A program made the position numbers and the translations under genes. Shown here one piece after another: positions 1 through 13,201 of a stretch of 64,000 nucleotides of DNA. Position 1 is the stretch's first letter; every line of letters begins with the position of its first letter. The notes beneath the pieces are model-generated. The model was not told the origin of the DNA. It worked only from the letters and a program-made list of their open reading frames with translations, and made no database searches. The DNA lies in NCBI GenBank assembly GCA_017394885.1, contig JAFPWO010000025.1, forward strand, positions 1 to 64,000, in the 5' to 3' direction. The DNA comes from Lachnospiraceae bacterium (lineage in GTDB: Bacteria > Bacillota > Clostridia > Lachnospirales > Lachnospiraceae).

Positions 1-375
1 GGCAGCATCGAAGGCCTGACGAAGCCGCAGGCGGCGCTGATCTTCGGAACGGAGACTTCGATCAAGTTCTACTTCCAGTACAGCGGCGACGTAAGCGAGC
101 TCAGCTTCAGCTGCAACAACGGAATGGATGTCACGCCGGTGGCGCAGAGCAACGACGGAAGATACTTCGTCAAGATCAACGGCCTGCGTTCGTACGTGCT
201 GTACAAGGACTATGTGCTTACCATCACGAAGGGAAGCGAGAAGCTGGAACTGACTTACTCACCGTACACCTACGCGGCGAATAAGTGGGATTCCTCCGAC
301 AACAAGGAAGCGACCCTGATGCACGCGTTTGTTGAATACGGCAATGCGGCAAGAGCTGCCTGGCCGAACAACTAA
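1..375 (+). CDS. C-terminal end of a secreted protein (5' truncated by window edge)
   Basis: An open frame enters from the window edge in frame 1 and ends at TAA 373-375, giving the last 124 residues of a larger protein. The stretch aligns almost without gaps to the last 120 or so residues of the giant subtilase encoded next (842-7192): both share TETSIKFYF/SETSLKIYF, then DGRY, a GLRSYVLYKD/GIRSYELYKD motif, YSPYxYAAxKW and a closing YGxAARxxW. By eye about half the positions are identical. The upstream body is not visible, so its activity is unknown. By analogy with its neighbour it is probably another large exported protein. A strong terminator follows at 401-432, so the two genes are separate transcription units. 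Confidence 0.85.
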   Translation, partial: GSIEGLTKPQAALIFGTETSIKFYFQYSGDVSELSFSCNNGMDVTPVAQSNDGRYFVKINGLRSYVLYKDYVLTITKGSEKLELTYSPYTYAANKWDSSDNKEATLMHAFVEYGNAARAAWPNN

Positions 376-791: not shown

Positions 792-841
792 CTACGTTGA
801 ATCCTTATCGGGATACTATAATTACTCAGGAAGGAGATACT

Positions 842-3800
842 ATGAAACAAAGCAACTTTTTACGCAGACTGACTTCGTTTGTTCTGGCCGCTGCTATGAT
901 CATCGGCCTGACAAGCGGTCTGCCTGCCAAAAAAGTTCTTGCCGCGGGAGAGAGTGAAAACTCTCGTTTGACCTGGGAAAAGGTCGAGAACGAAGGCAGA
1001 GGACGAATGTTTCAAAGTAAGGAAGCAGCAAAGCTTTTCGAAGAGAACTATGTAAAGGAAGGGAAGGTTCGTGTTTCCATCGTTCTGGAAGCACCTTCCG
1101 CCATTGAAAAAGGTTATTCGACGAATAATATTGCTGCAAACACCGGCGCGAAGACTTATCGTGCACAGCTGCGTGCGCAGCAGGAGGAACTGGCTGACAG
1201 AATCTCCAGTCAGGTCCTCGGCGGAAAGCAGCTGGAGGTGGTCTGGCATCTGACGCTGGCAGCCAATATCATTTCCGCTTATGTGCCGTATGAGAAATTG
1301 GATGAGATCGGGCTGGTAAGAGGCGTTAAGAAGGTCATTGTGGAAACACAGTATGAACCGGAAAGCACGATCAAAGAAGAAAACCAGCCGAATATGGCTA
1401 CCGGTTCGGAAATGGTCGGCGGCAATCTTGCCTGGGCATCTGATCTGACCGGTGCCGGCAGCCGGATCGCGGTCGTGGATACCGGCCTGGACATTGAGCA
1501 TGAACTGTTTGCGGCGGATTCTTTTGAACATGCGATCGAGGGACAGAATGTTCAGCTGATGACAGCCAGCGATGCAGCAAATGTCTGGGACCAGCTGAAT
1601 GTTTCGCAGTGGGTCGCTTCTTCAGCCGGAACCTATGTAAACAGCAAAGTTCCTTTTGGCGTCAACTATGTTGATTTTGATTTGGATATCACCCATGCGA
1701 ATGACAGACAGGGTGAACATGGTTCCCACGTCGCCGGTATTGCCGCCGGTAACCGTTTCGTAAAAGAGGACGGAGAGTTCAAATCTTCGCTTGATACGGT
1801 TATGACGCAGGGCGAAGCGCCGGATGCGCAGCTCCTGATCATGAAGGTCTTCGGCAAGGGCGGCGGCGCCTATGATTCCGATTATTTCGCTGCGATCGAA
1901 GATGCGATTCTTCTTGGCGCGGATGCGGTGAACCTGTCGCTCGGCTCTTCGGTGGCCGGCTTCGTAATGGATGAGGATTTTCAGGATATCCTGGACAGCC
2001 TGACCGAGTGCACGAATCTGGTCTGGTGCAACTCTGCCGGCAACAACTATGACTGGACGAATTTCAACATCGGCAAATACGGCGGTTCTCTCTATGCAGA
2101 TGACGTCAATTTTGCGACTGGCGGCAGCCCCGGTACCTATGCTCCGACCTTAAGCGTGGCTTCGGTGGAGAACAAAGGGTCTACAGGAATGTATATTGAA
2201 GTGAAAGGCACCAAGTATTCCTATACAGAGACCCAGTATAAGAACACAAAAATTACTTCACTGGCGGATCAAAGCCCGCTGGAGTACGTTCTTTTTGATG
2301 ATCCCGCTGTCATCTCAGACGATGATGACAACATTCTTGAAGATCATTTCGCGGATCTGGATGAAGGCGTACTGACCGGCAAAGTCGCGATGTGCTACCG
2401 CGGTTCTTCCAGCTTTTACCAGAAAGTGGATGCCGCCGCTGCGGCCGGAGCCGTTGCCTGCGTCGTTATTAATAACAGGAGCGGCGCTTTTGGCATGGTG
2501 CTGAGCGATATGGAATCAACGCTTCCCGCCATTTCGATCTCGCAAGCGGATGGGGATTCTATTATTGCCGACTCTGAAGAAACAGAGATTAATGGCATGA
2601 CGGCCTATACCGGCACGCTCGTTATCGGAAAAACACCGTATATCAATAATCCCGGTGAAGTAGACAGCTATACCATGAGCGACTTCTCCAGCTGGGGCGT
2701 ACCCGGTGATCTGAGCATGAAACCGGAGATCACTGCACCCGGCGGAAATATCTATTCTGTACATGGCTATGCTTATGACAGTTCTACCGGGACATATGCC
2801 GGCGGTCCGGGATATTATGAGAACATGTCCGGTACCTCCATGGCATCTCCTCAGCTGGCCGGCCTGGCAGCACTGATGGCACAGTACATCCGCGAAAATG
2901 ATCTGGTGACCAAAACCGGGAAGACGGCAAGACAGCTGACACTGAGCCTGCTGATGTCTACCGCGGAGCCGATCGTAAATTCGAATGGCGCTCTGTATTC
3001 GATCCTGAAGCAGGGCTCCGGTCTGGCCAATATCAACAATGCGGTCAATGCTCGCTCGTATGTAACGATAGATAAGGTGGCGAATACCGCCCCGGCTTCC
3101 GCTGCTGCCTCTATCGCGGATGGAAAGGTAAAAGTTGAACTTGGGCAGGTAAAGAGCGATTTCGTATCGGCAAGCTTTACATTGCACAACTTCTCAGACG
3201 AATCGATTTCGTACTATCTGAGTGCGGAATTCTTTACCCAGTTGATCTATAGTGGCTTCCGCTGGCAGGATATTACGCCGCTCACCCTCAATCTGACCTG
3301 GACGGTGAACGGGCAGACCTATGTTCCCAAAGATGCCGAGAAGTTTGACTTTAACGGGGATAATGTTGTCAGCAGCCACGATGCGCAGCATCTGCTGGAA
3401 TACTGCACCGGTCTTAAGACTTCGCTCAACGGGAATGACGCGTATGCGGATTTTGACCAGGACGGCGATATCGATACCTATGATGCACGGCTGGCTTATG
3501 AAAAGCTGAATAATGCTTCACTGGATATAGCAGCTAATTCCGATGCGCAGATCGTGCTGACAGTATCCGGGCTGGATGCCGCGTTGGGAACTGCCATAAA
3601 CGGCAACTATATCGAAGGTTACATCTATGCACAGGAAGGCGAGACCGAAGACGGCGCGCTGGGCGTTCAGCATTCGATCCCGGTACTGGGATTCTACGGC
3701 AACTGGACTGATGCATCCATGTATGACAAGGGAACCTATCTGGACAGCTTTGATAATAGTTTCGGCAGTGAGACCAGATATCCGTATATGGTTTATGGAA

Positions 3801-6800
3801 CCGGAGGATACTATTATCCGCAGAGCTTCCTGGTACAGTACAGCGGAGATCCCAATCTGTATTATTTCGGCGGGAACCCGATCACTCGTTTCGATACCGA
3901 TTTCAGCTTTTCGGAAGAACTGTATCTGCCGGAGCGCAACGCCCTGAATCAGAATGATATGATCGCGGGCATCCAGTATACGCTTATCCGCAACTCTGCC
4001 GGCTGCCGTTTCTTCGTTACGGATAAAGACGGTGATATTATCGCTCTGATGAACGGTGGAAGCTCCTATGCCGCCTATTATTCGCAGAAGGATGAAGCAT
4101 GGCAATATGTAAGCACCACGATGACCTTCAACTATCTTGCCAAAGGTCTGGAAGAAGGGCAGAACTATACGCTGAACTGGCAGATGGCACCGGAGTATTA
4201 CGTTGATACAGAGACCGGTGAAATCAGCTGGGATGAGGTCGGTAAGGGAACGCTGATAAGTATTCCGTTCGTGATCGACAATACCGTGCCGGAGATCGAC
4301 GGTGCAGCGTACGATGAAGACACGATGACGATCGCAGTCACCGCATCCGATAATCAGTATATTTCTGCTGTCGTGCTCTATACGGAAGAAGGCGAACAGG
4401 TTGATATCTATCCGGGCTTTGCTGAACTGGAACCCGGAGAAGAGATGACCTATCCGTTTAACCTTTCCTCGGTACTGACCGGGGAAGAAACGGATCCGGT
4501 CCACTTCCTGATAGAGGTTTATGACTATGCCTGCAACCTCTCTACCTATAAAGTAAACCTGAATCCGGAGGAAGCGGACGATGCCTATGAAGTCGTTCTG
4601 AATCAGCATGAAGCAGAAATCGTGAATGCCGGAACGCTTCAGTTGTCTGCGACTGTCTACCCGTGGAGTTATGCGGATGAAACCTTGATTTGGTCTTCTT
4701 CCGATGAGACGCTTGCGGTAGTGGATGAGAATGGTCTGGTACAGGGTGTAGCAAAAGAGAACGGCGGTACTGTAACGATCACGGCCACGTCTGCCGTGGA
4801 TCCGAATGCTTCAGACAGCTGCGAGGTAACCGTCACCGTTCTTAAAAAGGGTCTGAACGGCATTGTCTGGGATGAACAAGGCGCTATCTGGCTGTCGGCA
4901 TTTGATATAAGCACTTTGCCGGCTTATGATAAGCTGAATGCGGAATCCTATTATCCGACCCTGCTGAGCTCCATGACCTATGATGAAAACGGCACGCTTT
5001 ACGCGGTCAGCTTTGATAATTCGGATTGGTCATCGGTCGTTTATACGATGGATCCGAACACGTACGAACTGACGGAAGTCGGCGCCGGTACAGTTGGCTA
5101 TATGGATATCTGTCAGGCTCCGAGTCTGGCAGGAGGTCTGTTGCTGGCGGTTTATGGACCGTATGTTATGCTGGTAAACAAAGCAACAGGCGCTATGGCA
5201 GGCTACTTTGATTTCTCGGACGACTTAGGCGACAACTATTTTGTTGGCATTGCTTACGAGGAACAATATGATCATCCTTCATATGGGCTGACTGACTGGA
5301 TATGGCTGATTGATGAAGCAGGCAACCTGTATAATACCGGATTCCTGAACTACAACGGCAGTTATACCCGCTTTACTCTCAGGAATCTTGGCCAGATCGG
5401 CGACAAGGTTGACAGACGGTACTGGCAGTCCCTGTATTATGATGGTGAAGATCTCTACTGGAGCAGATTCAATTATGCGGATAATGTCGTCGAGTTGATT
5501 ATGGTCAATGACATCTATAGCGATGGCAGTATCTATCATCTGGGCAAATTCGGAGACGGCGTATGGCCGGTCGGCGGTTTGTTCGAGATGGGTGTCAATC
5601 CGTATTTCGGACCGATTTCCGAGAGCGGTACGAATGAAAGACACAGCGATGCAGAGATTAATGAAAACAGTGCCTTCCTGACCGAGATTGAACCGCTTCC
5701 GGTCCCTGCTTCCGAGAGCACGCACAAGGGCTCCCTGAATGCGGTGAAGACGTCTGACGACGGTAAGACCGCTGATCCCGATAAGGTCTCCACCGAAGTG
5801 AAGATCGAGATCGCAGCGGAAGAGCTTTCCAAGAACGGCCTAATCACGCTGGAGATTCCGGAGACGGCAGAGCTTCTGAATATCGAAAGCTATGCGGAGC
5901 ATGAAGCCTGGAATTATAAGGATGACGGAACAATCGTTTACGGCTTTGTGGACGAGATCGGTATTCTGGAAGGACGGAACATTCTGGTCCTGACCTTCTC
6001 CAAGGAAAGCAGCGGTACAGTCACCATTACGACCGAAGATATCAACACGGACGATGAGCAGCACCTGGTAGAGACAGTTATTCTCGGTACGGCAACGGCC
6101 GAGCATACGGTCCACACCTACGGCGAACCGACCTGGGAGTGGGCTGAAGACTTCACCAGCGCTACCGCCACCTTCGTCTGCCCGGTCGATGACGACACGC
6201 AGGTCGTGGAAGCAAATGTGGAAAGTGTGTTCGATGCAGAAAGCGGCATCCTTACCTACACTGCGACCGTGACCTTCGAGGAAAAAGAGTACACCGATAC
6301 CGTGGAGATCGATCTCTCCGAAGTCGGCTATACGGCAACGGTTACCATGCAGGAGAACTTCAACCTGAACCTTTACATCAGAAATGTGAAAGATGAAGAT
6401 GCTGCTAATTTCGATGTGAAGTGGACCTTTGACGGGGCTGAGTACGAGGCTAACCTGGGTGAATTGAAGAAACAGTCTGACGGACGTTTCAAGATCCAGC
6501 TGGCGAAGGTCTTCTCGTACCAGATGACAAAGCCGTTCGAGATCGTGGTCACATACCTCGGTGTTGAGATCAAGACCATTGATTATTCGATCCAGAAGTA
6601 CTTCGAAAACCGTCTGAAAGCGGACAATGAAAGTGATGAGATGAAGGCCGTTTACAAGGCAGCCCTTGACTACGGCGCATCCGCACAGCTGTACTTTGAC
6701 GGCAAGTCGTATGCCGGCGGAACGTATGATACGGATGTGGAGCATCTTGCCAATGCGAATTCCAATCCGGATAATACCATTACGGCAACGAAGCCGAACA

Positions 6801-7192
6801 ATGCTTCAGCCAAGTCAGGCAGCGTAACAGGCTTTACTCCCAAGACCGCGACGCTGATCTTCGGCAGTGAGACATCCCTGAAGATCTACTTCCTGTTCGA
6901 CGGAGACATTGCCGATCTGACGGTCGGCTGCGACAATGGCAAGACGGTAACCGAACCGGTACTGGGAAGCGATGGCCGGTATTCCATTAAGCTTGAGGGC
7001 ATCCGCTCTTATGAGCTCTACAAGGATTTCGTGTTCAGCTTCTCCAAGGGATCAGAGACCGCAACGGTCACCTATTCTCCGTATGCGTATGCAGCGAAGA
7101 AGTGGGAATCCTCTGATGCGAATGAAGCAAGACTGGTCCAGGCTCTCGTAGCCTACGGTGACGCCGCCAGAGTCGTCTGGGGTGAAAACTGA
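842..7192 (+). CDS. Giant secreted subtilisin-family (S8) protease with dockerin-like and Ig-like domains
   Basis: This encodes a 2,116-residue exported serine protease. The start at 842 is chosen over an in-frame ATG at 797 because it follows GGAAGGAGA at a good distance and opens a signal peptide (MKQSNFLRR, a hydrophobic core, cleavage near VLAA). The catalytic triad is intact: Asp213 in AVVDTG, His293 in HGSHVAG and Ser666 in GTSMASP. A protease-associated domain sits between His and Ser at roughly 480-560, as in lactocepin and C5a-peptidase-like enzymes. A dockerin-like pair of calcium loops (DFNGDNVV and DFDQDGDID) lies at about 836-890. A bacterial Ig-like (Big_2) domain spans about 1250-1336. 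The tail carries two tandem copies of an unnamed module (about 1830-1975 and 1990-2116). I see no LPXTG motif, S-layer domain or transmembrane anchor. Its likely role is extracellular protein breakdown. Confidence 0.93.
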   Translation: MKQSNFLRRLTSFVLAAAMIIGLTSGLPAKKVLAAGESENSRLTWEKVENEGRGRMFQSKEAAKLFEENYVKEGKVRVSIVLEAPSAIEKGYSTNNIAANTGAKTYRAQLRAQQEELADRISSQVLGGKQLEVVWHLTLAANIISAYVPYEKLDEIGLVRGVKKVIVETQYEPESTIKEENQPNMATGSEMVGGNLAWASDLTGAGSRIAVVDTGLDIEHELFAADSFEHAIEGQNVQLMTASDAANVWDQLNVSQWVASSAGTYVNSKVPFGVNYVDFDLDITHANDRQGEHGSHVAGIAAGNRFVKEDGEFKSSLDTVMTQGEAPDAQLLIMKVFGKGGGAYDSDYFAAIEDAILLGADAVNLSLGSSVAGFVMDEDFQDILDSLTECTNLVWCNSAGNNYDWTNFNIGKYGGSLYADDVNFATGGSPGTYAPTLSVASVENKGSTGMYIEVKGTKYSYTETQYKNTKITSLADQSPLEYVLFDDPAVISDDDDNILEDHFADLDEGVLTGKVAMCYRGSSSFYQKVDAAAAAGAVACVVINNRSGAFGMVLSDMESTLPAISISQADGDSIIADSEETEINGMTAYTGTLVIGKTPYINNPGEVDSYTMSDFSSWGVPGDLSMKPEITAPGGNIYSVHGYAYDSSTGTYAGGPGYYENMSGTSMASPQLAGLAALMAQYIRENDLVTKTGKTARQLTLSLLMSTAEPIVNSNGALYSILKQGSGLANINNAVNARSYVTIDKVANTAPASAAASIADGKVKVELGQVKSDFVSASFTLHNFSDESISYYLSAEFFTQLIYSGFRWQDITPLTLNLTWTVNGQTYVPKDAEKFDFNGDNVVSSHDAQHLLEYCTGLKTSLNGNDAYADFDQDGDIDTYDARLAYEKLNNASLDIAANSDAQIVLTVSGLDAALGTAINGNYIEGYIYAQEGETEDGALGVQHSIPVLGFYGNWTDASMYDKGTYLDSFDNSFGSETRYPYMVYGTGGYYYPQSFLVQYSGDPNLYYFGGNPITRFDTDFSFSEELYLPERNALNQNDMIAGIQYTLIRNSAGCRFFVTDKDGDIIALMNGGSSYAAYYSQKDEAWQYVSTTMTFNYLAKGLEEGQNYTLNWQMAPEYYVDTETGEISWDEVGKGTLISIPFVIDNTVPEIDGAAYDEDTMTIAVTASDNQYISAVVLYTEEGEQVDIYPGFAELEPGEEMTYPFNLSSVLTGEETDPVHFLIEVYDYACNLSTYKVNLNPEEADDAYEVVLNQHEAEIVNAGTLQLSATVYPWSYADETLIWSSSDETLAVVDENGLVQGVAKENGGTVTITATSAVDPNASDSCEVTVTVLKKGLNGIVWDEQGAIWLSAFDISTLPAYDKLNAESYYPTLLSSMTYDENGTLYAVSFDNSDWSSVVYTMDPNTYELTEVGAGTVGYMDICQAPSLAGGLLLAVYGPYVMLVNKATGAMAGYFDFSDDLGDNYFVGIAYEEQYDHPSYGLTDWIWLIDEAGNLYNTGFLNYNGSYTRFTLRNLGQIGDKVDRRYWQSLYYDGEDLYWSRFNYADNVVELIMVNDIYSDGSIYHLGKFGDGVWPVGGLFEMGVNPYFGPISESGTNERHSDAEINENSAFLTEIEPLPVPASESTHKGSLNAVKTSDDGKTADPDKVSTEVKIEIAAEELSKNGLITLEIPETAELLNIESYAEHEAWNYKDDGTIVYGFVDEIGILEGRNILVLTFSKESSGTVTITTEDINTDDEQHLVETVILGTATAEHTVHTYGEPTWEWAEDFTSATATFVCPVDDDTQVVEANVESVFDAESGILTYTATVTFEEKEYTDTVEIDLSEVGYTATVTMQENFNLNLYIRNVKDEDAANFDVKWTFDGAEYEANLGELKKQSDGRFKIQLAKVFSYQMTKPFEIVVTYLGVEIKTIDYSIQKYFENRLKADNESDEMKAVYKAALDYGASAQLYFDGKSYAGGTYDTDVEHLANANSNPDNTITATKPNNASAKSGSVTGFTPKTATLIFGSETSLKIYFLFDGDIADLTVGCDNGKTVTEPVLGSDGRYSIKLEGIRSYELYKDFVFSFSKGSETATVTYSPYAYAAKKWESSDANEARLVQALVAYGDAARVVWGEN

Positions 7193-7335: not shown

Positions 7336-7377
7336 GCTCTTTGTAATGGATTCTCAGCAAATGAAAGGAGTTTTCTC

Positions 7378-7488
7378 ATGAAGAAGTATACCGAAGCGGA
7401 AGTCGAAATCATTCGTTTTGACGTACGTGATATGATTACCACCAGCGGCCCCGGCGAACAGGGCGAAGGCGGCGGAGACGATCTGTAA
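7378..7488 (+). CDS. 36-residue peptide, candidate RiPP precursor
   Basis: ATG at 7378 follows AAAGGAG (7363-7370) at normal spacing and the frame closes at TAA 7486-7488. The first half is charged and amphipathic (MKKYTEAEVEIIRFDVRD) and would suit a leader. The second half begins ITTSG and is then dominated by Gly, Glu and Asp, ending DDL. Thr5, Thr21, Thr22 and Ser23 are the only hydroxyl side chains apart from Tyr4, and there is no Cys or Trp. It has its own promoter and a strong terminator, and lies 300 bases before an operon of HprK-like kinase, PqqD-like protein, S26-type peptidase and exporter. I recall similar MKKY...DVITTSG peptides as hypothetical proteins in gut Clostridia. Its role as a modified, exported peptide precursor is inference from context. 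Confidence 0.75.
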   Translation: MKKYTEAEVEIIRFDVRDMITTSGPGEQGEGGGDDL

Positions 7489-7502: not shown

Positions 7503-7532
7503 AAAGGAGGGCTTTTATGCCCTCCTTTCCTT
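7503..7532 (+). terminator. Rho-independent terminator of the peptide gene
   Basis: A perfect 10-base-pair stem (7503-7512 with 7519-7528) with a 6-base loop, followed by CCTTTTAT. It ends the peptide transcript 15 bases after the stop codon and insulates it from the modification operon, so peptide and enzymes can be made at different levels. Confidence 0.88.
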
Positions 7533-7729: not shown

Positions 7730-7757
7730 TTGCAAACTGCCGGAAAATCCGTATAAT
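7730..7757 (+). promoter_or_regulatory. Promoter of the kinase-PqqD-peptidase-ABC operon
   Basis: TTGCAA 7730-7735, a 16-base spacer and a perfect TATAAT 7752-7757. The first gene starts at 7797. No further clear promoter is seen before hprK at 12269, so this may also drive hprK-murB-whiA. Confidence 0.8.
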
Positions 7758-7796: not shown

Positions 7797-8534
7797 TTGG
7801 AGATCCTTCGCCTTGCAGAACGGAATATCAGTATTTCTGGTCTTTCTGACTCGTTTCCGGATTTTGCCCGGGATTATCTATGCGAGGCTGAAACACCGGA
7901 TTTTTCTGTGAACTGTACTTCGGAGGATATCGCCCGGGAACAGAAGAAATCAGAGGAAGAAGCTGTCCTGGAGGGGATAAAGCCCCGGCTCTGGCCGGCT
8001 CCGTATCTGGAAACGCTGGCGGTTTACCGTAAGATAGCCGAGAAAATGCCGGCTTATGATACGTTCCTGTTTCACGGTTCTGTCATAGCCGTCGATGGAG
8101 AAGCTTTTCTTTTTACAGCCAAGAGCGGCACCGGGAAGTCTACTCATACACGGCTCTGGCGGGAATATTTCGGAGACCGCGTGTTTATGGTGAACGATGA
8201 TAAGCCGCTGCTCCGCGTATTGCCGGACGGAAGTGTTACCGCATACGGTACGCCCTGGAACGGCAAGCATCATCTGAGCAGAAATATCGGCGTCCCCTTA
8301 AAAGCTGTTTGCATTTTGACAAGGGATACGTATAATCATATTGAACGGTTAACGGCAGAAGAGGCATATGCCTCTCTATATCAGCAGGTCTATCATCCGA
8401 AGGAAGGAGAGGCGCTGCTGAAAACGCTGGAGCTGTTGGATATTCTTTGTAAAAACGTGGGATTATATCGCCTTGGCTGCAACATGGATCCGGAGGCTGC
8501 CCGGGTCGCCTATGAGGGAATGACAAGAGGATAA
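7797..8534 (+). CDS. HprK-like kinase of a peptide-modification cluster
   Basis: This 245-residue protein starts with TTG behind AGGAGG (7784-7789). It carries an HPr-kinase-type P-loop, SGTGKST at residues 110-116, preceded by a hydrophobic strand, and a downstream NDDKP stretch at 133-137 that matches the VADD region of HprK. It lacks the N-terminal half of true HprK, and a full canonical hprK sits only 4.4 kb downstream, so it is a paralogue and not the HPr enzyme. Kinases of this kind occur in lasso-peptide clusters such as paeninodin, where one phosphorylates a Ser of the precursor. Here the inferred substrate is the 36-residue peptide at 7378-7488, whose Thr-Thr-Ser run is the obvious target. 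Substrate not proven. Confidence 0.82.
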   Translation: MEILRLAERNISISGLSDSFPDFARDYLCEAETPDFSVNCTSEDIAREQKKSEEEAVLEGIKPRLWPAPYLETLAVYRKIAEKMPAYDTFLFHGSVIAVDGEAFLFTAKSGTGKSTHTRLWREYFGDRVFMVNDDKPLLRVLPDGSVTAYGTPWNGKHHLSRNIGVPLKAVCILTRDTYNHIERLTAEEAYASLYQQVYHPKEGEALLKTLELLDILCKNVGLYRLGCNMDPEAARVAYEGMTRG

Positions 8535-8609: not shown

Positions 8610-8870
8610 GTGAAATTAAAAAAAGGGTTTTATACCCATCAGGCCGGAAATGCACAGGTCATGGTCGGCGTGGCCGGAACCGGTTTTTCCGGGATCTTCC
8701 GGAGTAATGAGACGGCCGCATTTATCGTGGATCAGTTAAAAAACGAAACCACTGAGGATGAGATCGTAAAAGCGATACTGGCGGAGTATGACGCCACGGA
8801 AGACCAGGCTCGACGGGATGTTCGGATGGTACTGGGAAAACTGAGAGAAATCTCAGCCCTGGAGGAGTAA
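8610..8870 (+). CDS. PqqD-family protein (RiPP recognition element)
   Basis: An 86-residue protein starting with GTG at 8610; the ribosome binding site (CAGAGG) is weak. Its pattern fits the PqqD fold: a beta-rich N-terminal half (GFYTHQAGNAQVMVGV, then FSGIFRSNETAAFIVDQL) and a helical half (TTEDEIVKAILAEYDAT). PqqD-like domains bind the leader of a precursor peptide and present it to the modifying enzyme. In this operon it sits between the HprK-like kinase and the S26-type peptidase, so it probably presents the small peptide to one or both. No fused enzymatic domain is present. Confidence 0.85.
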   Translation: MKLKKGFYTHQAGNAQVMVGVAGTGFSGIFRSNETAAFIVDQLKNETTEDEIVKAILAEYDATEDQARRDVRMVLGKLREISALEE

Positions 8871-8886: not shown

Positions 8887-9366
8887 ATGAACAAGCAGGC
8901 AATGGAGAATCGGATCCCGGAAGGAACGATCGATTTCGAAACCTACCTTAAAGAAAACGGATCCCTGACCTACTGGAATCGCGGCGCCAGCATGCGTCCG
9001 CTGATCCGGCAGGACAAGGATCTGTTTACGGTACTTCCCAAAACCAGGGGTCGCTGTCAGAAATATGACGTGGTGCTGTATAAGCGCCATAACGGCGTAT
9101 ATGTACTGCATCGGATTCTGAAGGTCCGGGAAGACGATTACGGGATCCTGGGGGATAACACCTATAAAATGGAATACGGCATTACCGATCGCGACATTCT
9201 GGGCGTGATGACGGCTTTCTCCCGGGGCGGGAAATCCTGGACGTCCGTTGAATCTGCCGGATACCGATTTTATGTCCGCTTCTGGTTTGCGATATATCCG
9301 CTTCGGAAGGCTTTTGTTGCCGGAAGACGCCTGGCAGCACGCATTTACCACCGTATTGCAAAGTAA
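8887..9366 (+). CDS. S24/S26-type signal peptidase-like protein with Ser-His dyad
   Basis: This 159-residue protein has the signal peptidase boxes: GASMRPLI with nucleophile candidate Ser35, KYDVVLYKR, VLHRILKV with His75, and ILGDN with Asp90. His in place of the bacterial general-base Lys (HRI) is the pattern of SipW, archaeal and ER-type (Sec11) signal peptidases. A short hydrophobic segment near residues 127-137 could be a single membrane span, placed C-terminally as in SipW-type enzymes. Lying between the PqqD protein and the exporter, it is the likely leader peptidase of the peptide system. It starts 17 bases after pqqD and ends 7 bases before the ABC gene. The LexA-like regulator alternative is unlikely because there is no DNA-binding domain. 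Confidence 0.8.
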   Translation: MNKQAMENRIPEGTIDFETYLKENGSLTYWNRGASMRPLIRQDKDLFTVLPKTRGRCQKYDVVLYKRHNGVYVLHRILKVREDDYGILGDNTYKMEYGITDRDILGVMTAFSRGGKSWTSVESAGYRFYVRFWFAIYPLRKAFVAGRRLAARIYHRIAK

Positions 9367-9372
9367 AGATCG

Positions 9373-11091
9373 ATGGAACAGACAACGAATCAAAAAACTT
9401 CGAATATGGCATGGCTGCTGCAGGTGACCCGGAAAAAGAGGTGGAGCATCTGGCTTCTTTTGCTTATCCAGCTGCTTTTGGCCGGGGCTGCGTTGTTTCA
9501 GACCTGGATGCTGAAAGGCCTGATCGATGCGGCTGTCAGCGGGAACAGCGGGGAGTTCCGCGCCCGGGCATTTTTACTGGTCGGGATCATGCTGGCGCAG
9601 CTCGCCATGCGGGCCGGACTGCGTTTCCTGCGGGAATATTCTCATGCATCGATCGAAAACGCATTGAAAAGCAGGCTCTTTGATTGCCTTCTGACCCGCT
9701 CTTTCCCGGAGGTTACAGCGGTTCATTCGGGAGAATGGATGAACCGGCTAACCAACGATACGACAGTAGTGGCGACCGGCCTCAGTGATATTGTCCCGGA
9801 TGTGATGGGGATGATCCTGCGGCTGATCGGAGGCATCGTTCTGATCCTGATCATGATCCCGCAGGTGGCATGGGTCATGGTGCCGGGAGGATTGCTGCTC
9901 GTCTTTTTTACCTTTCTCTTTCGGAAAAAACTCAAACTGCTGCATAAGCGCATCCAGGAAGCGGACGGACGGCTTCGGGTATTTTTGACAGATCGCCTGA
10001 CCAGTATGCTTGTGGTGCGTTCCTTTGTCCGGGAAGAAGCCGCTAAGGCGGAAGGAGACTGTTTTATGGACAGCCATAAGGCGGCCCGGATGAAGCGGAA
10101 TCATTTTTCCAATCTCTGCAACGTGGGTTTCGGCCTGTTCGTGCACGGAGCTTATATCGGCGCCGCCATTTACTGCGGCTGGGGGATCCTGAAAGGATTC
10201 CTGAGCTACGGGACCTTTGTCGCGACGCTGCAGCTGGTCGCGCAGGCGCAGACGCCTTTTGCCAATATTTCCGGCTATCTGCCCCGATATTATGCGATGC
10301 TGGCCAGCGCCGAGCGGCTGAGGGAAGCGGAAGGTTTTGAGGAAGACTTAAAAGAACCGCGGGTGGATCCGTCGGCGATCCAATCCTTTTATGCAGACGA
10401 GATGCAGGCCCTGTCCCTGCAGAATGCGTCTTTCAGTTATCCGGTCCGGGAAGGGGAACCGCAGCGAAGGACCTTGCACGAGGTGAATTTGCGCCTTTCT
10501 AAAGGAGAAATCACAGCGGTGACCGGCCCCTCCGGCTGCGGGAAAAGCACATTGCTGAAACTTCTGATGGCGCTGTATCCGCTGGATGAGGGAGAACGGC
10601 TGCTTGTAAATAAGGACGGCGAGATGGCTCTTCTCACCGCCGCCTGGCGCGGTCTGTTCGCTTATGTGCCCCAGGGCAACCAGCTGATGAGCGGGACGAT
10701 CCGGGAAGTCGTCTGTTTCGGAGACGGGACGGTTTCGGAAGAAAAAGTTAGAGAATCCCTGCATATCGCGTGCGCGGACTTTGTCGAAGAATTGCCGCTT
10801 GACCTGGACACCCCGATCGGTGAGCGCGGCGCCGGTCTGTCGGAAGGACAGCTGCAGCGCCTGGCCATTGCCCGCGCCATCTGCTCGGAGCATCCGATCC
10901 TGCTGCTGGATGAAGCGACCAGTTCCCTGGATGAGGCGACAGAGCAGAAGCTCCTGGAGAATCTGGAGACCATGACGGACCGCACGGTGATTATTGTGAC
11001 GCACCGCCCCGGCGTTCTTCGGATCTGCAGCCAGGAGATACGAATGACAGAGGAGGGGATCCGGGTCAGAAACCTGGCCGAAAAAGGATAG
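9373..11091 (+). CDS. ABC exporter, fused membrane and ATPase domains
   Basis: A 572-residue half-transporter. Residues about 17-310 hold the six-helix exporter domain. The nucleotide-binding domain (about 335-565) has Walker A GPSGCGKS with Lys391, signature LSEGQ at 489-493 and Walker B LLLDEA with Asp513 and Glu514, then a switch His in VTHRP. There is no N-terminal C39 peptidase domain, which fits with leader removal by the separate S26-type protein just upstream. As a homodimer it probably exports the mature peptide. It starts 6 bases after the peptidase stop and is followed after 5 bases by the nucleotidyltransferase gene. Confidence 0.93.
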   Translation: MEQTTNQKTSNMAWLLQVTRKKRWSIWLLLLIQLLLAGAALFQTWMLKGLIDAAVSGNSGEFRARAFLLVGIMLAQLAMRAGLRFLREYSHASIENALKSRLFDCLLTRSFPEVTAVHSGEWMNRLTNDTTVVATGLSDIVPDVMGMILRLIGGIVLILIMIPQVAWVMVPGGLLLVFFTFLFRKKLKLLHKRIQEADGRLRVFLTDRLTSMLVVRSFVREEAAKAEGDCFMDSHKAARMKRNHFSNLCNVGFGLFVHGAYIGAAIYCGWGILKGFLSYGTFVATLQLVAQAQTPFANISGYLPRYYAMLASAERLREAEGFEEDLKEPRVDPSAIQSFYADEMQALSLQNASFSYPVREGEPQRRTLHEVNLRLSKGEITAVTGPSGCGKSTLLKLLMALYPLDEGERLLVNKDGEMALLTAAWRGLFAYVPQGNQLMSGTIREVVCFGDGTVSEEKVRESLHIACADFVEELPLDLDTPIGERGAGLSEGQLQRLAIARAICSEHPILLLDEATSSLDEATEQKLLENLETMTDRTVIIVTHRPGVLRICSQEIRMTEEGIRVRNLAEKG

Positions 11092-11096
11092 GACCA

Positions 11097-12272
11097 ATGA
11101 CAGAAAGAGTCTTGACACCGGAAGCGGAAGCCTTATTATATCTGACAGCCTGTGCCGTGAACGGGGCGATCCCCCGAAAAGAGCGGGTTGCTTCTTTTGC
11201 GTGGGAGAAGCTTCTGGAAAAGGCAAAACAGCAGAAGATGAGCGCGATGGCAGCGATCGCGCTGGAAAGCATGCATGAGGAAGATCAGGCTGTTATCCCG
11301 GAAGAGATCCGAAGAGAATGGCAGAAACTGCGGATGTCTAATCTGCGCAGAAGAATGTTGTTTGATGCGGAGCGCGGGGAACTGTTCCGGCTGTTTGACG
11401 AAAAGGAGATCTGGTATCTGCCGCTCAAAGGCATTATTATTCAGGACTATTATCCGGTCTATGAGATGCGGGAGATGACGGATAATGACATCCTTTACAA
11501 CCCGCAGAAAAAAAGAAAGCTGTGCCGGATCTTTAAAGACAGGCAGTACCGGTATGTTTCTGAGCATAACGTGGATGCCTTCATGAAGGAGCCCTTCTTT
11601 AATTTTGAGATGCACAGAAGAATATTCCCAGGGAATCTGTCTTTTTTCTCTGCCGTCATGAAGCGTACCATTCCAGCCGGAGACGGGACGCTGGAAAGGC
11701 TTATGACCCCGGAAGACTTTTACCTGCATTTTTTACAGCACGCCAGAAAGCATATGCTCAGCAAAGGGTCAGGCATTCGTCCTCTTGCGGACCTGTTTGT
11801 AATCCAGAATTCTTTGGGAGACAAATGGGATGCGTCCCTGTTGGAGAAAGGGATAAACGCTTTGGATCTGCAGAATTTCCGGCTTGTTATGGAGGGCCTC
11901 ACCGATAAGCTGCTTTCGGATCCGGAGTGTCAGGATATCAGCAAGCTCTCCGATGAGGAATGGCTCTTCCTGTCCCATATGACAGGGTCATACATGTACG
12001 GTGACCAGCAGCAGTTTGTCCGGAACTTTTTTGAACAAAATGTCGGTGAGCAGGTTACCCTGCGATCCCGAATGAAATATCTTTGGCTGCGTTTATTCCC
12101 GGATATGGAATACATGAAGGCTTATTTCCCGATATTGAGGAAAATCCCGGTTTTGCTGCCATTCCTTTATCCTGTCCGATGGGTGCTGCAATGGCTTCGA
12201 AGATCAGAACACATAAAAGCAGAACTGAAGTTTTTACGGAAAATCTCGAAAGTAAGGGAGGATAAATCATGA
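11097..12272 (+). CDS. Nucleotidyltransferase-family protein (NTP_transf_5 type)
   Basis: This 391-residue protein has the hallmark of the uncharacterised nucleotidyltransferase family often found in lasso and other RiPP clusters: LKG at residues 110-112, then Y-x-x-REM-T-D129-N-D131-IL, with two acidic residues expected to bind metal. The rest is helical. It is the last cluster-specific gene, 5 bases after the ABC transporter, and its stop codon overlaps the start of the true hprK (ATGA at 12269-12272). It may add a nucleotide or related group to the peptide, or act on another metabolite in the pathway; neither is shown by sequence. Confidence 0.8.
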   Translation: MTERVLTPEAEALLYLTACAVNGAIPRKERVASFAWEKLLEKAKQQKMSAMAAIALESMHEEDQAVIPEEIRREWQKLRMSNLRRRMLFDAERGELFRLFDEKEIWYLPLKGIIIQDYYPVYEMREMTDNDILYNPQKKRKLCRIFKDRQYRYVSEHNVDAFMKEPFFNFEMHRRIFPGNLSFFSAVMKRTIPAGDGTLERLMTPEDFYLHFLQHARKHMLSKGSGIRPLADLFVIQNSLGDKWDASLLEKGINALDLQNFRLVMEGLTDKLLSDPECQDISKLSDEEWLFLSHMTGSYMYGDQQQFVRNFFEQNVGEQVTLRSRMKYLWLRLFPDMEYMKAYFPILRKIPVLLPFLYPVRWVLQWLRRSEHIKAELKFLRKISKVREDKS

Positions 12273-13201
12273 ACGCGATCAGTCTGGAACAGCTGGCTCA
12301 TGAACTGCAGCTGGAAAATCTTACCCCCGAGATCCCTCTCTATGATATTCTGATCCAGACGGCGGAAATGAACCGGCCGGCGCTGCAGCTGACGGGCTTT
12401 CTGGAGCATTTTGATCCGAGCCGTGTCCAGGTGATCGGCCTGGTAGAGCATACCTATGTCAATTCGCTGGAGCCGGAAGAGCGGATCCGCGCTTTTGAGC
12501 GGCTTTTTTCCGCCCATATCCCCTGCCTGATCCTTTGCCGGGGCTTTAAGCCGGCGGAGGATGTGGTGACTCTGGCGCTGCGCTATCATGTTCCGATTCT
12601 CTCCAGTCCGATGTCGACCTCGACCTTCCAGGCCCGCATCATGCGGCTTCTGGAGGTGCGTCTGGCGCCGATGGTGGCCATTCACGGCTGTCTGGTGGAC
12701 GTTTTCGGGGAAGGCGTGCTGATGCTCGGAGACAGCGGCGTGGGCAAGAGCGAGACGGCGCTGGAGCTGATCAAGCGCGGACACCGCCTGGTCGCGGACG
12801 ATACCGTGGAGATCCGCCGCTACAGCGAGAACGAGCTGTACGGCCGCGCGCCGGAAGTGACAAAGTATCTCATGGAACTGCGCGGCATCGGCGTGATCGA
12901 TGTCAAAGCGCTGTACGGGGTCGCCAGCGTCAAGGATGACATGCGCATCAGCATGGTCATGAAGCTGGAATCCTGGGACAATAAAAAGATTTTCGACCGG
13001 CTCGGCATGCGGGAGGATTTTGTGGAGTATCTGGGCAATAAAGTCACCTGCTATACCGTCCCCATGAGCGCGGGCCGCAACTCGGCGGTGATTGTGGAGA
13101 CGGCCGCCATTAACTTCCGGCAGAAGAGAATGGGCTACGACGCGATGCAGGAGCTGGAGAGGCGCCTTGCGGAGCAGATGAGCCGGAACCGGGGAGAATA
13201 A
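12269..13201 (+). CDS. hprK: HPr kinase/phosphorylase
   Basis: The canonical bifunctional enzyme that phosphorylates and dephosphorylates HPr at Ser46 to control carbon catabolite repression. At 310 residues it is full length. It has the N-terminal domain, P-loop GDSGVGKS at 154-161, LVADDTVEI and the C-terminal signature LRGIGVIDV. The ATG sits after AGGGAGG and overlaps the previous gene by 4 bases, so it is translationally coupled to the peptide-modification operon. It is followed within 2 bases by murB. In many Firmicutes hprK is grouped with cell-envelope genes; coupling to a RiPP-like cluster is unusual. Confidence 0.96.
   Translation: MNAISLEQLAHELQLENLTPEIPLYDILIQTAEMNRPALQLTGFLEHFDPSRVQVIGLVEHTYVNSLEPEERIRAFERLFSAHIPCLILCRGFKPAEDVVTLALRYHVPILSSPMSTSTFQARIMRLLEVRLAPMVAIHGCLVDVFGEGVLMLGDSGVGKSETALELIKRGHRLVADDTVEIRRYSENELYGRAPEVTKYLMELRGIGVIDVKALYGVASVKDDMRISMVMKLESWDNKKIFDRLGMREDFVEYLGNKVTCYTVPMSAGRNSAVIVETAAINFRQKRMGYDAMQELERRLAEQMSRNRGE

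Follow-up and report, generated by a model that had tools for sequence, protein, structure and literature searches.

Where a gene for an HprK-like kinase adjoins a very short open reading frame, the question arises of which residue of the peptide the kinase would modify and what the product would be for. In the stretch of Lachnospiraceae DNA analyzed here (64,000 nucleotides, hereafter the window), the peptide in question, MKKYTEAEVEIIRFDVRDMITTSGPGEQGEGGGDDL, is probably the precursor of a small linear phosphopeptide from a RiPP pathway like that of the linear polyphosphorylated peptides (LPPs), with an RRE, a kinase acting at Ser23, an S26 peptidase and ABC export (table 1). We base this reading on the genes and their order, the conservation of Ser23 and of catalytic residues, the absence of a lasso cyclase and co-occurrence across genomes; phosphorylation, its site, leader cleavage by the S26 peptidase and export would proceed as in the characterized LPP pathway.

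Table 1. Features of the window, with precursors of a further type from other loci in the last row.
Feature	Position	Strand	Basis or remark
Protein cut by contig start, closed by the same C-terminal domain (CTD)	37..375	+	
Large secreted subtilase-like protein upstream of precursor	797..7192	+	Sec signal MKQSNFLRRLTSFVLAAAMIIG; S8, PA, Big_2, dockerin
Weaker second CTD copy, same protein	6413-6700	+	
CTD of the 797..7192 protein	6851..7189	+	Common to proteins upstream of other precursors
Ribosome binding site AAAGGAG	7364..7370	+	Sequence
Precursor peptide, 36 aa	7378..7488	+	RRE-binding leader Y4-F14, conserved D18-M19-I20, near-invariant Ser23, acidic tail
Ser23 codon, predicted phospho-acceptor, LppA Ser3 equivalent	7444..7446	+	Ser in 44/46 homologues
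Terminator-like hairpin, T-rich tail, between precursor and enzyme genes	7503..7528	+	Consensus match only
Promoter-like site TTGCAA-16-TATAAT before kinase gene	7730..7757	+	Consensus match only; such matches occur in about chance number
HprK-like peptide kinase, LppK equivalent, TTG start	7797..8534	+	Invariant GTGKSTH and NDDKP; AF2 model; HprK/P match
PqqD-family RRE, predicted leader-presenting, LppB equivalent	8610..8870	+	PF05402 E=9e-16; profile matches TbiB1, TfuB1, LppB 9x8z
S26/SipW-type peptidase, predicted leader peptidase, LppS equivalent	8887..9366	+	Ser35, His75, Asp90; weak model matches; invariant S/H/D; fold
MsbA-like ABC exporter without C39 peptidase domain, LppD equivalent	9373..11091	+	PF00664, PF00005; best NCBIfam model MsbA_rel
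NTP_transf_5 nucleotidyltransferase, LppN equivalent	11097..12272	+	PF14907 E=2e-34
Housekeeping HPr kinase hprK	12269-13201		Canonical; downstream of cassette
YxKPxLD-type precursors	L155:8364-8537; L156:10536-10718; L158:13232-13417		

The peptide had been described in an initial annotation made from the letters of the window, and its translation, ribosome binding site and homologues bear that description out: the hydroxyl residues are exactly Tyr4, Thr5, Thr21, Thr22 and Ser23, and a tail rich in Gly, Glu and Asp follows Ser23. A profile built on homologous leaders matches this frame alone in the 64-kb window (E=1.6e-6) and the adjoining kinase has hundreds of relatives, so the frame is not a product of chance. 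The genome (G000; 2.22 Mb, 97% complete) encodes one such peptide and one PqqD protein over the cut-off, and searches of Pfam, NCBIfam and the PDB returned no significant match to the peptide. The lack of Cys and Trp that the annotation had pointed out holds for the window peptide and does not extend to its homologues, whose tails contain Cys in 5 and Trp in 7 of 46 cases; the exclusion of lanthionine, thioether and azole chemistry stands, the corresponding enzymes not having been found. The leader, called amphipathic, does alternate hydrophobic and polar residues (V9, I11, F14, V16), a pattern more in keeping with a beta strand packed against an RRE than with an amphipathic helix.

The genes that follow complete a cassette of which the annotation had left out the S26 leader peptidase and the NTP transferase, as well as the association with the upstream secreted protein. 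The kinase has no Pfam HprK match and weak matches to ScmC and HprK_rel_A; its AlphaFold2 model (pLDDT 93) retrieves HprK/P first and then PEPCK from the PDB with Foldseek, and GTGKSTH and NDDKP are kept in all 29 kinase-family sequences compared. The S26 protein, matched weakly by the models for archaeal signal peptidase I and SipW, has a conserved Ser-His-Asp triad and a predicted structure with the signal peptidase/LexA fold. The clostridial RRE profile matches TbiB1 and TfuB1 at 1e-6 and LppB (9x8z) at 3e-4, the last scoring below both actinobacterial lasso RREs. The NTP transferase gene overlaps at its 3′ end with hprK, which places the cassette immediately ahead of that canonical gene; the genes after hprK we take, from reading their translations, to be murB- and whiA-like.

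This arrangement is not peculiar to the window. The kinase profile finds at least 588 relatives in GTDB genomes, of which 80 loci were kept, two from Atopobiaceae and most of the others from Lachnospiraceae and Oscillospiraceae of the rumen and gut, and the order peptide-kinase-PqqD-S26-ABC-NTP recurs among them. Around the 80 kinases, many of them on short contigs, PqqD was found 66 times, S26 62 times, ABC 45 times and NTP 38 times, and at the level of whole proteins no family from outside the cassette occurs in more than 6 of 86 neighborhoods. In the kinase tree the window falls within a well-supported clostridial group, nearest L057. Precursors track the kinase within the genus (8 of 9 kinase-bearing genomes vs 0 of 7 kinase-less ones) and occur in all 20 carrier genomes searched, often as several copies away from the cassette (eight in R. 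flavefaciens Y1). A scan of IMG/VR with the RRE found no relatives, and a plasmid collection yielded distant kinases only (Butyrivibrio, Phocaeicola, Prevotella).

Several loci lie at the edges of this group. Distant kinase and S26 pairs occur outside Bacillota, on a Phocaeicola plasmid (L138) and in Prevotella (L139), where no precursor was recognized, and two contigs of Atopobiaceae (Actinomycetota; L099, L102) carry the kinase with S26, PqqD or NTP genes, possibly by transfer or through a binning error. Clusters of kinase and PqqD in L053, L054, L056 and L043 include radical-SAM-looking reading frames (CxxxCxxC or a Cys-rich end), and their precursors, such as YVSPMVTIEYYRLTQAIASCA, appear to be further branches of kinase-RRE peptides. 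A precursor type YxKPxLD...FE(N/S)VF(T/A)xC, located beside kinase and S26 genes, has Cys at the place where Ser would be expected.

Iterated profiles returned about 50 precursors from 43 loci, and residues were counted over 46 distinct clostridial precursors found with a profile truncated ahead of the boundary triplet. Their leaders follow the pattern Y-x-x-(P/A/L)-x-(M/I/L)-E-V-I-x-F-x-x-E-D-V-I-x-x-S, with Asp18 invariant (46/46) and Ile20 (41/46), Phe14 (40/46), Tyr4 (39/46, Phe in the other 7), Glu10 (37/46) and Pro7 (22/46) kept to decreasing degrees. Ser23 is present in 44 of the 46, a figure that the seeding of the precursor HMM with Ser-bearing peptides could inflate; the profile ending before Ser brought in no new Ser-less members. 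Thr21 and Thr22 are each found in 30, being replaced by V/A/C/L/R/E/M and by A/D/E/N/V, respectively, in about a third of the homologues that keep the kinase. Position 23 is Thr in none of the 46, and its non-Ser cases are one Met and one Ala, the latter through a one-residue shift. The initial annotation had proposed the Thr-Thr-Ser block as kinase target and expected it to be the most conserved part of the peptide, which proves correct of Ser23 only; its broader idea, that one hydroxyl site is conserved where leader meets core and that an HprK-like kinase and a PqqD-type RRE are encoded alongside, is upheld. The pattern it had named as contrary, a kinase kept where boundary Thr/Ser is lost, was seen only in L118 (boundary CDMGSEEGI, with Ser displaced two residues later) and, by way of the one-residue shift, in L046. 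Because position 23 is so nearly always Ser and never Thr, and the two threonines are far less constant, Ser23 rather than the whole block is the likely phosphorylation acceptor. The tails span 5-31 residues with 26% D+E and 2% K+R, and 45 of the 46 are net negative, which makes the acidity noted for the window peptide a family trait. Further Ser or Thr occurs within 35 of the 46 tails and is absent from that of the window, and a motif E/D-(L/T/Q)-P is found in 12 tails against 2.0 expected from shuffled tails.

The lpp cluster of Paenibacillus alginolyticus, from which the LPPs were reported in 2026 with no role assigned to them, comprises LppA, kinase LppK, RRE LppB, SipW-like LppS, exporter LppD and NTP transferase LppN (Popov et al. 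2026, PMC13381572). LppK phosphorylates one boundary serine only, core Ser3, adding several phosphates (S3A, S3T and S3Y are inactive), and LppS cleaves after FET, right before xxS, in a reaction that needs the RRE and proceeds poorly on the unphosphorylated precursor (PMC13381572). By analogy, the PqqD/RRE protein of the window would bind the leader (Y4...F14), the HprK-like kinase would phosphorylate Ser23 and the SipW-type S26 peptidase would remove the leader, after which the ABC protein would export a short acidic product (TTSGPGEQGEGGGDDL if cleavage follows Ile20); the NTP transferase may add a further group to the phosphate before export. A cut after Ile20 is what LPP would predict, cuts after Thr21 or Val16 are also possible, and all three keep Ser23 in the product.

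The constancy of Ser23 might instead reflect cleavage, Ser23 being retained as the −1 residue of the S26 site while the kinase modifies a different site or a different protein. The signal-peptidase fold of the S26 protein, the preference of signal peptidases for small residues at −1, the position of Ser at the leader/tail boundary and the additional Ser/Thr of most tails would all suit such an arrangement. We nevertheless regard it as improbable, because Ala, Gly and Thr practically never replace Ser23, whereas a −1 rule would permit Ala, Gly, Cys or Thr. The window tail, moreover, would leave the kinase without a target in the product, and in LPP the cut precedes xxS and Ser3 is the mapped site (PMC13381572). 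Far less credible still is a degraded or cyclase-less lasso cluster with core GPGEQGEGGGDDL, Thr22 at −2 and a cyclase encoded elsewhere, even though the lasso-like RRE leader, the T-S-G at the boundary and the company of an HprK-like kinase, ABC and NTP transferase genes recall paeninodin clusters. We reject the lasso reading because there is no cyclase: Asn_synthase does not rise above the cut-off anywhere in the 97% complete genome, no cyclase or B2 motif was seen beside 85 related cassettes, and an S26 gene is found near these loci instead of B2-motif frames. Thr22 is also swapped in a third of the homologues, and many tails lack an initial Gly. The single PP-loop match, in L109, is to a reading frame of 258 aa at a distance of 5 kb.

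If the peptide is the precursor of a linear phosphopeptide, its genomic neighbors bear on what the product might do. Among 74 distinct precursors with upstream sequence, 61 have a gene on the same strand less than 600 nt upstream; 51 of these genes encode at least 350 aa (up to 2955), with signal peptides in 34, several of the others being cut by a contig end. Forty-four of 57 large upstream proteins form one BLAST component, which may be held together partly by repeats, LRRs among them. Aligning 20 of these proteins, all from carriers, gave a profile for a C-terminal domain (CTD) of ∼110 aa with no significant match in Pfam, NCBIfam or the PDB; in an HMM search it ends 0-6 residues from the C-terminus in 43 of 54 reading frames. 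A precursor gene follows the CTD frame in 41 of the 54, a figure biased by the choice of loci around kinases and precursors; 36 distinct precursors have a recognizable CTD gene upstream and 39 do not. The N-terminal parts of CTD proteins vary, including subtilase with PA and Big_2 (the window, L057), transglutaminase-like (L101) and BspA-type LRR (L081, L039) forms. Genome G601 has ten CTD proteins, each with the domain at its C-terminus, against a single precursor, and wherever the start of such a protein is intact a simple pattern recognizes a Sec-like signal. Other exoproteins encoded directly upstream of precursors (L092, L097, L074, L220, L221) close with a second C-terminal type (TWYVRSYVKY...YGD).

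Genome-wide counts, which are independent of locus choice though shared ancestry makes them less than independent of one another, point the same way. The kinase is present in 9 of the 16 genomes of the genus, and the CTD in exactly those nine and in none of the other seven (hypergeometric chance 1/11440). Across 200 genera of the family, the CTD occurred in six genomes, all among the seven with a kinase at E<1e-60 (the exception is G051), a threshold picked after seeing the data; at E<1e-38 the CTD is found in 6 of 13 or 14 vs 0 of the rest. Of 398 genomes drawn from the phylum, only the two whose S26 is closest contain the CTD. Because the profile was derived from carriers, it could overlook divergent versions of the domain in non-carriers. 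The pairing of CTD and precursor is not universal: the profile detects no CTD in 4 of 20 carrier genomes, and the proteins upstream of many precursors end differently. The system is nonetheless tied by co-occurrence and gene order to large secreted proteins that share the CTD. Our search of the open-access literature found no paper linking such a cassette to exoproteins.

The position of the domain, its co-occurrence with the cassette and the pairing of the genes suggest that the phosphopeptide acts jointly with CTD exoproteins outside the cell, which it may anchor, protect or activate. A more specific proposal, that the exported peptide, Ser-phosphorylated and perhaps also nucleotidylated, serves as a dedicated partner of the CTD, binding or being joined to it and thereby holding or sorting exoproteins at the cell surface, is offered tentatively, as something we think rather unlikely in just this form. 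That the peptide is a signaling or antimicrobial product exported alone, its closeness to exoprotein genes reflecting shared regulation only, is a serious possibility that we would still place short of probable; it competes with the exoprotein reading and leaves the LPP-like pathway untouched. In its favor, LPP and lasso systems are regarded as natural-product pathways, a hairpin divides the peptide from the enzyme genes in the window, and the carriers without a CTD by the profile used are readily accommodated. A stand-alone product leaves unexplained, however, a CTD whose distribution within the genus coincides with that of the kinase, as well as up to ten CTD exoproteins per genome of which most are unlinked to the cassette.

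Such a partnership between peptide and CTD, if true, would mean a RiPP pathway used for sorting or anchoring surface proteins and not for making antibiotics or signals. The travel of the cassette with a CTD on large exoproteins is a strong clue to function, and if the link holds, the purpose of phosphorylated RiPPs becomes testable as surface-protein biology. Common among bacteria of the rumen and gut, the clostridial branch offers a precise acceptor prediction (Ser23, not Thr) together with a distinct leader code.

Of known systems, C-terminal sorting tags such as PEP-CTERM and the type IX CTD likewise combine a Sec signal at one end with a shared domain at the extreme C-terminus of diverse exoproteins and a co-occurring processing cassette; here, no transpeptidase or exosortase was seen, the cassette would make a modified peptide, and any attachment is hypothetical. 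The cassette kinase shares with HprK/P the fold, the Walker A region and a conserved Asp, but its sequence is too distant for Pfam Hpr_kinase_C and the housekeeping hprK is separate. Phosphorylated lasso peptides of the paeninodin type (padeK, NTP transferase) have an RRE-bound [Y/W]xxP-type leader, an HprK-like kinase, an NTP transferase and an ABC exporter in common with the window, which differs in having neither cyclase nor B2 cysteine peptidase and a boundary Ser instead of a C-terminal one.

The closest counterpart is LPP itself, and we call the cassette LPP-like, without claiming membership, because the leader consensus differs. Of the LPP consensus YxxPxVLxHQxIxFETxxS the window has Tyr, Phe and xxS, with no HQ and no FET at that spacing; position 7, Pro in the consensus and in 22 of the 46 homologues, is Ala; and an extra block after F14 ends in D-x-I, so that Tyr and Ser are 19 residues apart rather than 18. 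The present systems are also clostridial, with short acidic tails as opposed to the 45-aa LppA core, and their precursor genes are dispersed through the genome and linked with CTD exoproteins; the main text of PMC13381572 names neither Clostridia nor CTD-type exoproteins. A PDB search with an LPP-like leader string built from the published consensus retrieved designed repeat proteins only. FETxxS precursors were absent from the collected clostridial loci and occurred only in L155 and L156 (G296, G210), where canonical LPP-looking precursors (YVKPMIITEEEIQFETLVS, YSKPEITHEEEIEFETRIS; FETLVS, FETRIS, FETAIS) adjoin a paeninodin-like lasso precursor among several HprK-like kinases; in the kinase tree these, where placeable, fall outside the clade of the window. 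Against these differences stand the same six functions in the same order as the lpp cluster (A-K-B-S-D-N), a discrete PqqD-type RRE, an HprK-like kinase beside the precursor, an MsbA-like exporter with an NTP transferase, a SipW-like/archaeal-type peptidase with Ser-His-Asp and the absence of a macrolactam cyclase. Ser lies three residues after a conserved motif in both (D-V-I-xxS in the family and D-M-I-TTS in the window, F-E-T-xxS in LPP), the variable +1 and +2 neighbors before it correspond to the "xx" of LPP, and a position 23 that is never Thr parallels the dead S3T variant. On sequence grounds, the cassette is a gut and rumen clostridial LPP-like branch.
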